Assembly (NCBI RefSeq): GCF_009909155.2
Contig: NZ_JAAAPM020000004.1
Location: 124,001 to 188,000, forward strand
Direction: 5' to 3'
Length of the DNA stretch: 64,000 nt
Origin: Flavobacterium undicola
Lineage (GTDB): Bacteria > Bacteroidota > Bacteroidia > Flavobacteriales > Flavobacteriaceae
Positions 20,393 through 47,986 of this stretch are shown in pieces. The position numbers and the translations under genes were made by a program. Below the pieces are notes generated by a model. That model was not told the DNA's origin. It saw nothing but the letters and a program-made list of their open reading frames with translations, and did not search any database. The stretch's first letter is position 1, and every line of letters starts with the position of its first letter.

Positions 20393-21634
20393 ATGAAAAA
20401 TACAATCGCATTACTATTCTTTTTGATTTTAGTTTCTTTTAGCTCTTTTTCACAAAGTTTGTCCAGTTCTCCTTATTCTATATATGGTTTAGGAAGTTTA
20501 TATGATTCTGATTTTGGATCCCTTTCGGCTATTGGTTCTTCGGGAGTTGCCTTGCCGTCTAACCGATTTATAAATAATTTGAATCCTGCTTCTTTAGGAT
20601 TCATGTATCAAAATCACTTTTTGTTTGATGTAGGAGGAAAGGCTATTCAAACCTCATATCAGGATGTGTCGAAGAAAGAAAGTCGGAATAACGTACAGTT
20701 TTCGCATATAGCATTTGCTTTTCCATTAAGTACTAAATCGGCAGTTAGTGTTGCATTAAAGCCTTATTCAAGTGCCGGATTTAAAATATCAGATTACAAA
20801 TTACCTATTCAGGATAGTAATGAAGAGTATACTTTAAGTGCTACAGGCACTGGAGGTTTAAATAATTTTGATATTTCTTATGGTTATCGAATTGGAAAAA
20901 AAGTAGCATTAGGATTGACATCTTCGATTCTTTTTGGAAGTACGACTGACAATAGAGAATATGTTATTGCAAATTCAGTCACTACTATTGATAAAGAATC
21001 AAATTACAATGGAGTCCGACTTAATTTAGGTGGTCAATTTAAAGTAGATTCTACTTTTACTATTGGTGCCAATTTTAAATCGCCATCCAAAGTCAATGCT
21101 GCTAAAGTGCAATCGGTGATTACTTATAATGCCAATTTAGATGCTTCTAATACTATAGAGTCTCAAGCGAGTTCGGATGTTGATGATTATTTTTTACCAT
21201 TTGAATTTGCTGTTGGTATTAATAAGCAGTTTAAGAATAATTTGAGTGTGAGTATGGACTATGAAAAAGCTTTTTGGAAAAACACTGATCAGGCTGATAT
21301 GTATGGGAATTATTTGAATCAGGATAAATTTAAATTAGGTTTTTCGTATCGAAAGGAGAAAGATTTAAGAAGTTATTTTGATCGCATTCAGTTCTCCACG
21401 GGAATTAATTATGATACTGGTTTTCTTGAAATAGACAACAAAAGAATTGCAAATAAGGCGGTTTCTTTTGGGATTTCTTTGCCTATTGAAAATACTTTTT
21501 CAGCACTTAATATTTCCTATTCTTATGGACAAAAAGGGAGAATAAGTAATGGTTTGATAAAGGAAAATTATCACAAGATCTCTGTTAATTTGTCTTTAGA
21601 CGGGATTTGGTTTGTCAAAAGAAAATTCGAGTAA
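20393..21634 (+). CDS. Outer-membrane beta-barrel protein, FadL/OmpP1-like
   Basis: 413 residues with a signal peptide (ends SSFSQ). The N-terminus SPYSIYGLGSLYDSDFGSLSAIGSSGVALPS followed by NPASLGF, and the barrel strands through SYSYGQKGRISNG, resemble the flavobacterial OmpP1/FadL-like or PorV-like proteins. It starts at the base after the DUF4270 stop. The pairing is common in Flavobacteria, which suggests the barrel and the lipoprotein act together at the outer membrane; that link is inference. Confidence 0.75.
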   Translation: MKNTIALLFFLILVSFSSFSQSLSSSPYSIYGLGSLYDSDFGSLSAIGSSGVALPSNRFINNLNPASLGFMYQNHFLFDVGGKAIQTSYQDVSKKESRNNVQFSHIAFAFPLSTKSAVSVALKPYSSAGFKISDYKLPIQDSNEEYTLSATGTGGLNNFDISYGYRIGKKVALGLTSSILFGSTTDNREYVIANSVTTIDKESNYNGVRLNLGGQFKVDSTFTIGANFKSPSKVNAAKVQSVITYNANLDASNTIESQASSDVDDYFLPFEFAVGINKQFKNNLSVSMDYEKAFWKNTDQADMYGNYLNQDKFKLGFSYRKEKDLRSYFDRIQFSTGINYDTGFLEIDNKRIANKAVSFGISLPIENTFSALNISYSYGQKGRISNGLIKENYHKISVNLSLDGIWFVKRKFE

Positions 21635-45256: not shown

Positions 45257-45393
45257 GTTTTTTATGAATATATTTTAAGGCTAGTTTAATAAAAATAGGG
45301 CTTTTTGACTTCTGGTGTTATCCAAAAGTAATAAATAAAATATTACAAAAATAATTTGAGGGTACTTGATGTATTCTCTTTTACTAGATTTCT

Positions 45394-45512
45394 GCGTGAA
45401 GGATGGCAGTGGAAATCCTTTTATGGAGCGCAGCGAAATAAAAGATTGTAACGAACAGCCTGACCCGTAGTTGCGAGGAGGAACGACGAAGCAATCTCGG
45501 AGGGACACGCCC
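45394..45512 (-). ncRNA. Structured intergenic element, copy 1
   Basis: A GC-richer island in an AT-rich gap. Terminal bases GCGTG (45394-45398) and CACGC (45506-45510) pair, and internal pairs include AAGGAT/ATCCTT (45399-45404/45415-45420), CTTTTAT/ATAAAAG (45418-45424/45438-45444) and AGATTG/CAATCT (45443-45448/45492-45497); some are mutually exclusive. Read on the minus strand, its GGCTGTTCGTTACAA and CCACTGCCATC segments match the second element at 47074-47220 in order. Two overlapping minus-strand ORFs across it are judged spurious. Confidence 0.55.
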
Positions 45513-45646: not shown

Positions 45647-46972
45647 ATGGATATTAAAAGAGTAGCAATTGATGCTGTAACTGAAACCATTGTAATGACT
45701 GTGGTACACATGGATTACAAAGGACAAGTAGCCAAAAGAATCAACGAAAAAATGCCTTTAGCGCAAGTAAAAGGATTTAGAAAAGGGGCTGTGCCTAAAG
45801 ATTTAGTTGAAAAACAATACGGAAGAGAAATTAAGCAAGAAGAGATTAAGAAAGTAGTTGACTTGGCTTTAGAGCGTTATATTCAAACTGAAAGATTAAA
45901 TCTTCTTGGAACTCCACTTCCTAAAGTGAGTGAAAACTTGGATTGGTCTGCTGAAGAATTGACTTTTGAATTCGAAATTGGTTTAGTGCCAAACTTCGAA
46001 TTAGACTTAGATGCTAAAAACGATATCGTAAAATATGTAGTTACTGCTGATGATAAATTAATCGACGGTCAAGTAGCTCGTATCCAAAAACAATTTGGTA
46101 CTGCAATTCCTCAGGAAGCTGTTGAAGCTACTTCTGACATCAAAGGAATCTTTACTAACGAAGCGGAAGGAATTGGTAACACAACTACTATCACTTTAGA
46201 TATTTTCAAAGACAAAGCTACTGCTGATAAATTCATCGGTAAAAAAGTTGGGGATGTAGTTACTGTAAACACTAGCGGTTTATTTGAAGACGATCACCAA
46301 TTGATGGATTACTTAAAAGTAGGTCATGATAACGTTCACGGTTTAGCTGTTGATGTAGATTTCACTATCGAAGCAATTACTGTTTCTGAGCCAGCGGAAT
46401 TGAACCAGGAATTGTTCGACAAATTGTTCGGAGAAGGAAAAGTAGCTTCATTGGAAGATTTGAAAGGAAAAATCAAAGAAGATGCTGAAACTCAATTTGC
46501 TCAACAAGCAGACCAAAAATTATTAGGTGACGTTACTGAGTTTTTAATCGAAAACACAAAATTCGACTTGCCTTCTGAATTTCTTAAAAAATGGTTGCAA
46601 ACTGTAGGAGAGAAAAAATTAACTCCAGAAGAAGCTGAAGTAGAATATGCACGTTCTGAAAAAGGATTGCGTTTCCAATTAATCGAAGGAAAAGCATTGG
46701 CTCAAAATGATATCAAAATCACTTTTGAAGACTTAAAAACTTTTACAGCTAAAAATATCCGTCAGCAAATGGCACAATTCGGTCAAACAAATCCTTCGGA
46801 CGAAGAAGTTCAAGGAATTGTAGCTAGAGTTTTGTCTAACCAAGACGAAGTAAAAAGACTTTCTGATCAGGTAGTTGCTGAAAAATTATTGGAATTGTTC
46901 AAAGAAAAAGCAAATCCAACAACTAAAGAAGTGACTTACGAAGAATTTATTGCTGCTTCTTACGGAGAATAA
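45647..46972 (+). CDS. tig: Trigger factor
   Basis: 441 residues. The ribosome-binding signature GFRKGAVPKDLVEKQYG at about 44-60 is diagnostic, followed by a middle domain and a long helical C-terminal chaperone domain (about 260-441). Trigger factor binds at the ribosomal exit and assists folding of nascent chains. The middle domain is present, but the catalytic PPIase signature is weak by eye, as in Bacteroidota generally. It has its own promoter and terminator and precedes clpP-clpX, a conserved order. Confidence 0.94.
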   Translation: MDIKRVAIDAVTETIVMTVVHMDYKGQVAKRINEKMPLAQVKGFRKGAVPKDLVEKQYGREIKQEEIKKVVDLALERYIQTERLNLLGTPLPKVSENLDWSAEELTFEFEIGLVPNFELDLDAKNDIVKYVVTADDKLIDGQVARIQKQFGTAIPQEAVEATSDIKGIFTNEAEGIGNTTTITLDIFKDKATADKFIGKKVGDVVTVNTSGLFEDDHQLMDYLKVGHDNVHGLAVDVDFTIEAITVSEPAELNQELFDKLFGEGKVASLEDLKGKIKEDAETQFAQQADQKLLGDVTEFLIENTKFDLPSEFLKKWLQTVGEKKLTPEEAEVEYARSEKGLRFQLIEGKALAQNDIKITFEDLKTFTAKNIRQQMAQFGQTNPSDEEVQGIVARVLSNQDEVKRLSDQVVAEKLLELFKEKANPTTKEVTYEEFIAASYGE

Positions 46973-47028
46973 ATAATTTCGGGAATAGCTGTAGGCATTA
47001 GCCAAAAGTTAAAAAAATAGTTATATTT

Positions 47029-47065
47029 GAGCGTCAGAAGTTTTTTTTGACGCTCTTTTGTTTTT
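47029..47065 (+). terminator. Terminator of tig
   Basis: Stem GAGCGTCA (47029-47036) / TGACGCTC (47048-47055) with an 11-base loop, followed by a T-rich tract. Confidence 0.85.
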
Positions 47066-47073
47066 AATTGTTT

Positions 47074-47220
47074 CAGGAGCAAAATCCAGCTATACGCTAC
47101 AAGTTTTTTTATCCGTTTCAGTTTTTTAAAATTCTTGAAAAAGCTTCCTTCGGTCGCTTTGCAAGAATAAAAAAACTAAAAAACGGATTTCAAAAAGCTT
47201 TTCGCTGCTATCTGGGCTAA
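47074..47220 (+). repeat. Structured intergenic element, copy 2
   Basis: Between tig and clpP. Two arms of 27 bases (47111-47137 and 47162-47188) form a long hairpin with an apical TTCCTTCGGTCG-type loop. Outside it, CCAGCTATACGCTACAAG (47086-47103) and the segment ending CGCTGCTATCTGGGCT (47203-47218) match the conserved ends of the element at 45394-45512 read on the minus strand (11 of 14 on each side), while the inner hairpins differ. Confidence 0.6.
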
Positions 47221-47314
47221 AAAACAAGACATAATGGCACTATTTGTAAAGAGGTATAACCTTTGTACAAGTAGAACAGAACGAGATATAACGTAAAACT
47301 TAGAACAAATAAAT

Positions 47315-47986
47315 ATGAACTACGGTAAAGAATTTAAAAAGTTTGCTACAAAGCACCAAGGAGTAAACGCCATGTATTACGATAAAATCGTTGCGGCAAT
47401 GAATCCTACTAATATGACTCCATATATTATTGAAGAACGTCAGTTGAATATTTCACAATTAGACGTTTTCTCAAGGTTGATGATGGATAGAATCATTTTC
47501 TTAGGTACAGGAATTGATGATCAAATTGCAAACATCGTTCAAGCGCAATTGCTTTTCTTAGAAAGTGCTGATGCTTCTAAGGATATTCAAATTTATTTGA
47601 ACTCTCCAGGAGGAAGTGTTTACGCAGGATTAGGAATTTATGACACCATGCAATACATCAAACCTGATGTAGCAACAATTTGTACAGGAATGGCAGCTTC
47701 TATGGGAGCAGTATTGTTGTGTGCAGGTGCAGCAGGAAAACGTTCGGCTTTACCACATTCAAGAGTAATGATTCACCAGCCATCAGGAGGAGCACAAGGA
47801 GTTGCAACTGATATGGAAATCAACTTACGCGAAATGTTGAAACTGAAAGATGAGTTATATAAAATTATCTCTCACCATTCAGGACAAACTTTTGAGAAAG
47901 TACACAATGATAGTGAGCGTGACTACTGGATGATTGCCGAAGAAGCAAAAGAATACGGAATGATTGATGAGGTTTTAAAGAGATAA
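47315..47986 (+). CDS. clpP: ATP-dependent Clp protease proteolytic subunit
   Basis: 223 residues. The catalytic triad is Ser129 (TGMAASMGA), His154 (MIHQPSGG) and Asp203 (SERDYWM), with spacing of 25 and 49 residues as in the Escherichia coli enzyme. The N-terminal extension of about 30 residues before the first core strand may be a propeptide. It forms a barrel protease with ClpX, encoded 80 bp downstream. The gap contains a heptamer-armed hairpin. Confidence 0.96.
   Translation: MNYGKEFKKFATKHQGVNAMYYDKIVAAMNPTNMTPYIIEERQLNISQLDVFSRLMMDRIIFLGTGIDDQIANIVQAQLLFLESADASKDIQIYLNSPGGSVYAGLGIYDTMQYIKPDVATICTGMAASMGAVLLCAGAAGKRSALPHSRVMIHQPSGGAQGVATDMEINLREMLKLKDELYKIISHHSGQTFEKVHNDSERDYWMIAEEAKEYGMIDEVLKR

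Follow-up and report, generated by a model that had tools for sequence, protein, structure and literature searches.

MITEs such as Correia or BOX are short, non-coding, dispersed elements with a modular interior, and in the attC sites of integrons a variable palindromic core lies between conserved arms, and one strand folds. Flavo-1, the subject of this work, is alike to the former in these features and to the latter by analogy only. With the REP/BIME sequences associated with RAYT it shares the occurrence of many dispersed, mostly intergenic imperfect hairpins that are present or absent between relatives.

Flavo-1, a hairpin family of Bacteroidetes, is already known, being described in Rfam (RF01705, type 'Gene; sRNA'); it entered the literature in 2010 as a candidate structured RNA (PMC2864571). 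In F. psychrophilum, as far as the pertinent passages of PMC9723704 go, Flavo-1 matches occur indistinctly sense and antisense of transcribed regions, many of them outside such regions; several 5' transcribed regions coincide with matches, and the matches gave no real clue to function. The locus described here agrees with RF01705 in sequence, arms, secondary structure and host group, but one of its two copies has an unusually long nested tip and a changed arm pairing. The family itself, described as RNA, is read here as what is probably a dispersed DNA repeat with a replaceable tip.

The two Flavo-1 copies around tig

An Rfam scan of the window (the whole stretch of DNA analysed, 64 kb) returned two matches above the curated thresholds, both of them Flavo-1 and both exceeding the RF01705 gathering score of 42 bits. 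One lies on the minus strand at 47077–47224 (Rfam match 47079–47222, 55.2 bits, E 3e-9), in the gap between two plus-strand ORFs that we take, following an earlier note on this DNA, to be tig (trigger factor, 45647–46972, 441 aa) and clpP (47315–47986, 223 aa). The other lies on the plus strand at 45382–45469, upstream of tig (54.1 bits, E 6.2e-9), so that tig stands between both copies. The two are certainly members of Flavo-1, and in the Rfam alignment both have the conserved arms and the paired central step found family-wide.

Read on the minus strand, the tig–clpP copy begins with TTTTTAGCCC and ends with GCTCC. According to the Rfam alignment, its hairpin has the 5' arm GATAGCAGCGAAAAGC (47197–47212), by eye a variant of the usual GATnGnAGCGGAAATCC, and the 3' arm ACTTGTAGCGTATAGC (47089–47104); compared by eye with the usual arms, AAG/CTT takes the place of the ATC/GAT pairing. 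The variable tip, as parsed and as predicted by folding, is a nested hairpin of about 91 nt (47105–47196, minus strand), equal in length to the longest of the 135 tips that could be parsed. In the copy upstream of tig, the plus-strand arms GATGGCAGTGGAAATCC (45402–45418) and GATTGTAACGAACAGC (45444–45459), identified from the sequence and the Rfam alignment, enclose a short tip instead, and an extra palindrome, TTGCGAGGAGGAACGACGAAGCAAT (45471–45495, plus strand), follows on the 3' side; we take the latter to resemble a palindrome repeat widespread in bacteria. The short segments GCGTG (45394–45398) and CACGC (45506–45510) enclose the hairpin together with this palindrome, a layout that other species, by eye, keep at the orthologous site with different inner parts.

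The earlier note had proposed that two flanking segments of the tig–clpP element, GCTATACGCTACAA (47089) and TTTTCGCTGCTATC (47199), each match the element at 45394–45512 in 11 of 14 positions and in the same order. The matches are real, but they fall on the reverse complement of that element: the best same-strand match is 7 of 14, and the order holds only if one copy is read on the opposite strand. A best match of 11 was reached in 4 and in 1, respectively, of 2000 letter shuffles of the 45394–45512 element, and the shared membership in RF01705 puts the relation of the two elements far above chance. Because the 14-mer matches fall on the reverse complement, the two copies are mutually inverted; a reading in the same orientation is ruled out by these matches and by the Rfam strands (minus and plus).

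The position of the hairpin directly downstream of tig would suit an intrinsic terminator. However, the only terminator-like site found by a terminator scan in 46900–47400 is a separate one on the plus strand, the tig terminator at 47029–47055, just ahead of the tig–clpP copy, and that copy does not have the GC stem plus T run of a terminator; on the Flavo-1 strand of many copies, moreover, T precedes and A follows the hairpin (by eye). With an E value of 3e-9 telling against a chance match, we regard terminator and coincidence together as explanations that hardly deserve credence.

Trigger factor loci of relatives were scanned at E <= 0.01; in the upstream position, two matches fall below the gathering score. 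Of 30 loci, 8 have both copies, one the downstream copy only and one the upstream copy only (9/30 at each site); tig was thus found flanked on both sides, as had been suggested. At each of the two sites, the orientation relative to tig is constant across all loci carrying Flavo-1. The tig terminator, which served as a control beside the tig–clpP copy, is present in 30/30 loci; its stem is GAGCGTC/GACGCTC in 19 of them, and the other 11 have one G-T pair in it. No recognisable element was seen by eye in the tig–clpP gap of L115, L118, L119, L121 and L123, and G051, whose tig is the most similar among the relatives, is without the upstream copy. A third arm form, GGAGCTC / GCGGGAAC, occurs in the upstream copy of L127, L133 and L141 and, by eye, also of L135, L136 and L139; since no Rfam match was reported upstream of tig in L135 and L136 in spite of this form, the Rfam counts may be too low. 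Among eight tig–clpP copies extracted by script, the tip is similar in six; its middle part differs in L127 and L138, both of which retain the innermost GAGCGAC..GAAGCTC hairpin. The tig–clpP copy may be pictured as an old insertion that came to lie between the tig terminator and clpP in the orientation opposite to that of the copy upstream of tig.

Arms, tips and the folding strand

The common form of Flavo-1, as compiled by eye, is TTTTAGCCC[C/T]GAT-nGnA-YY-GG(C or AA)-ATCC-TTTT-tip-AAAA-GAT(A or TG)nA-YY-GGAnAGC-GGGA...GCTCC(T)AAA, where YY is a variable two-base central step. A second class in the genome of the window starts, by eye, with GCGTGAGGGAT and, like the copy upstream of tig, carries a further hairpin on its 3' side. 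Sheared G-A pairs may be possible within the internal loops, which are rich in purines.

For structural comparison, 144 copies were assembled (51 from the genome of the window and 93 from relatives; L046 was left out because of its coordinates), of which 135 were parsed and 9 were not. An earlier, looser parser handled 119 of the 144 and gave eight seemingly mixed arms, which by eye were parsing errors, and is superseded. Two arm types exist, with three or four bases separating the central step from ATCC/GAT: type 1 is found on both sides in 72/135 copies and type 2 on both sides in 63/135, and no copy is mixed. The central step is pairable, G-T allowed, in 133/135 copies, a figure somewhat inflated because the copies were found with a model containing the central pairs; in 2000 shuffles of the 3' steps, the count averaged 91.6 and never exceeded 103. 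Distant families show other central pairings, e.g. CT/AG (by eye).

A 20-bp palindrome, CCTGTCTGCCGACAGGCAGG, stands in full or near-full form at one fixed point of the 5' arm in several copies (L071, C45:148076; L189, L060, L065, L066, L073, L074 and L080), and at two sites it is cleanly present or absent between relatives. In genome G042, many hairpins (e.g. L299–L325) have a second conserved module, approximately TTCTTNTGAAAAC, on their left or right (by eye).

The apex is hypervariable, and yet most copies form a paired stem there. The 135 copies hold 114 distinct tips of 16 to 91 nt (median 27), with two dominant pentaloops, TCTTT (32 copies on 24 different stems) and GGGTT (29 copies on 17 different stems). 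Conserved ends with variable cores, from which a modular make-up had been surmised on the two window elements, are thus borne out across the family.

To follow tips at fixed positions, 19 sites of the window's genome were looked up in three relatives with a tig identity of 94–95% (for G031, over part of the gene); 18 of them were aligned. They gave 46 site-genome pairs, 23 of which had two parsed hairpins, the other 23 being left out as without the element or unparsed. Five of the 23 tip comparisons were identical, two were near (edit distance <=15% of length) and 16 were replaced (30–69%), and of the 46 flanks of these pairs, 42 align locally at 84–99% identity and the other four at 76–83%. 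At the level of sequence, these alignments show that close relatives keep flanks and recognisable arms at a shared site but often carry different tips. In four of the 23 comparisons, at three sites (L037, L042 and L052), both arms had switched type together; the least certain switch is L052 in G005, where the flank is repeated and the right flank aligned over 55 bases only. At the L071 site, the window's genome, G051 and G031 have three unrelated tips on nearly identical arms, and the G031 tip equals that at the L051 site of G031 (27/27). Among the 16 replaced tips, one has an exact match elsewhere in its genome of origin and one in another genome, and three more have a near match (within 7%), two of these matching each other in G051 at one base apart; it should be noted that T-rich tips can match by chance.

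Mispairs in the tips bear on the strand that folds. Of the 135 tips, 117 have a simple stem (>=75% Watson-Crick, >=6 pairs; the 18 below this were left out), and in these we counted 1294 Watson-Crick, 16 G-T, 3 A-C and 35 other pairs. Since G-T is commoner than A-C, these counts point to the Flavo-1 strand as the one selected to fold. The predicted energy is lower on this strand in 136/144 copies with DNA parameters and in 105/144 with RNA parameters. Folded as DNA, the tig–clpP copy beats 200/200 shuffles on the minus strand (z -4.10), with 5/200 shuffles as good on the plus strand (z -2.82); folded as RNA, it beats all 200 shuffles on either strand, and more strongly on the plus strand (z -5.09) than on the minus (z -3.40). 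The copy upstream of tig folds no better than its own shuffles on either strand, as DNA or as RNA.

Abundance and mobility

In the genome of the window (G000, 4.27 Mb, 90 contigs), 44 copies score above the cut-off; at E <= 10 the matches number 61. Matches occur in 58 of 61 congeneric genomes, from none to at least 64 per genome. In a sample of the class, 96/247 genomes have matches at E <= 0.001, 62 of them above the cut-off, with the best 18 matches per genome scored. None of 14 control genomes has a match above the cut-off, and 10 have weak matches at E <= 10. At least 119 stretches in named genome records match the half pattern of arm type 2, and the 80 listed come from Flavobacterium, Chryseobacterium, Halpernia, Kaistella, Epilithonimonas, a Sphingobacterium MAG, and MAGs named only Flavobacteriaceae or Bacteroidota. 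Neither this pattern nor that of the 3' half found any stretch in viral contigs, and an 88-base query, run without a positive control of its own, found nothing in plasmid and phage collections. Because none of the viral, plasmid and phage collections searched gave a match, Flavo-1 is, as far as tested, a chromosomal repeat.

In contig C1 of G042, inverted Flavo-1 pairs about 6 kb apart are found near 20546/26634, 495192/501221, 2350233/2356260 and 5290838/5297010; judging from their spacing, these pairs probably flank rRNA operons.

A link to RAYT genes, which the earlier note had put forward for checking, found no support. Dispersed intergenic imperfect palindromes are what a REP element moved by a RAYT/Y1 transposase would look like, and the genome of the window does contain a RAYT-like gene (L063:2637–3191, i.e. 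C6:85136–85690, 184 aa). However, the hairpins adjoining this single gene examined carry GTAG and are, by eye, unrelated to Flavo-1. Of 61 genomes, 20 gave no match to PF01797 (E <= 0.001; divergent RAYTs may be missed by this profile), and 12 of these 20 nevertheless have at least 30 Flavo-1 matches. The aligned 5' end of Flavo-1 is without GTAG or CGTC, the base table of 126/144 copies reading T-AGCC (the 3' end was inspected by eye). With no such tag, no Y1/RAYT link found and a tip that is not conserved between copies, Flavo-1 differs from REP/BIME sequences, and transposition by a RAYT is very unlikely.

A MITE, as left behind by a DDE transposon and bounded by terminal inverted repeats, would explain the short outer inverted repeats TTTTAGC / GCTCCTAAAA seen by eye, as well as the presence or absence of copies between relatives. 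Target-site duplications, which the earlier note had also proposed to look for, are not clear. In 125 copies, whose exact ends are uncertain, the best offset was compared with the maximum of 40 shuffled pairings: end repeats of 4 bases (19 copies) just equal the top of the shuffles (19), but those of 3 bases (27, maximum 31), 5 bases (5, maximum 8) and 6 bases (3, maximum 4) do not exceed it. In addition, conservation covers the whole structure and not the ends alone, and no parental transposon was seen in the loci read. The want of a clear target duplication and of a parental transposon in these loci sets Flavo-1 apart from Correia or BOX. We consider a MITE origin unlikely.

Ten stretches of relatives were chosen for a seemingly missing element or a disturbed site, and six of them are without Flavo-1 at E <= 0.1. 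Among the alignments listed, no clean insertion junction was seen at element-free sites, the junctions being ragged by eye, and no mobilising enzyme was found.

Two further candidates were rejected. Clusters at contig ends are not integron-like arrays, the two multi-copy ends examined holding ordinary genes, in which Flavo-1 differs from attC sites; and long inserts at orthologous sites are not autonomous elements, their contents being a restriction-modification-like gene and other genes. In one such stretch, L208 (G051:C1:1393300–1397800), the flanks of a Flavo-1 site enclose two genes where the genome of the window has none: one of 1021 aa, methylase-like and by eye restriction-modification-like, and one of 210 aa.

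Relation to genes and nature of the repeat

Gene calls came from a simple script that takes the longest ORF, and orientation was scored against tandem flanking genes. Antisense outnumbers sense 23:6 in the genome of the window (52 copies, p 0.002) and 14:6 in other congeners (29 copies); the ratio is 9:5 in G195 (20 copies), 5:2 in G051 (10 copies), 5:17 in G042 (37 copies, p 0.017) and 23:19 in named records (62 copies, leaving out copies <700 bases from a locus end and two inside long ORFs). L086 and L104, both tandem, are counted both in the 29-copy set and in the later per-genome counts. A general antisense bias is not borne out by G042 or by the named records. There is no common orientation rule to genes, in agreement with the remark on F. 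psychrophilum in the passages cited above (PMC9723704). Divergent sites exceed convergent ones 46:15, as compared with 40:31 for gaps in general (p 0.03; four copies by supposed rRNA operons left out), a hint of some link with 5' regions. A replication-strand bias was not found in G042 (30 co-directional and 34 anti-directional of 64 copies), taking the dnaA-like gene at base 1 and a terminus half-way.

These data bear on whether Flavo-1 is a real RNA element, small or cis-acting and folded within the transcript, which is what its Rfam type implies. Arm covariation and selection on one strand are what an RNA would display, the tig–clpP copy folds strongly as RNA, copies are slightly in excess near 5' ends, and the account of F. 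psychrophilum (PMC9723704) has Flavo-1 matches falling on several 5' transcribed regions. However, the orientation to genes reverses from genome to genome, and the same account places matches indistinctly sense and antisense, many of them outside transcribed regions. As regards the 'RNA element' of the earlier note, selection seems to act on the folding of one strand, but orientation to genes is not the same from genome to genome. We regard an RNA as possible, though this would not be our expectation.

We rather think it probable, from sequence comparison, that Flavo-1 is a chromosomal, dispersed REP-like DNA repeat, in which selection acts on the folding of one strand and the tip is subject to replacement, and not a gene-specific RNA. 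The form recognised would be a folded single strand, such as a cruciform or a replication or repair intermediate. Tips or whole hairpins might pass from copy to copy by conversion, or be rebuilt through template switching, which has been proposed to make and mend perfect stems (PMC8794818). Conversion between copies is invoked because template switching explains perfect pairing, but not wholesale tip replacement. Several observations weigh against a DNA repeat with tip exchange: only one of the 16 replaced tips matches exactly another locus of its genome, structural selection would fit an RNA equally, the antisense bias in the genome of the window is left without explanation, and neither the clean junction nor the mobilising enzyme mentioned above came to light. 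Should the DNA repeat with tip replacement nonetheless be the correct reading, the sRNA label of the family misleads.

A bolder version, which we offer as a speculation that is more probably wrong than right, is that Flavo-1 is a single-strand-folded DNA cassette across Bacteroidia and not an RNA family. A putative enzyme would recognise the stem and replace tips or whole hairpins in place, so that the sites would persist while the hairpins turn over between species. If true, the copies would be a natural record of palindrome replacement at fixed sites, and the coupling of the arms and the strand preference would be handles for finding a Flavo-1-binding protein.
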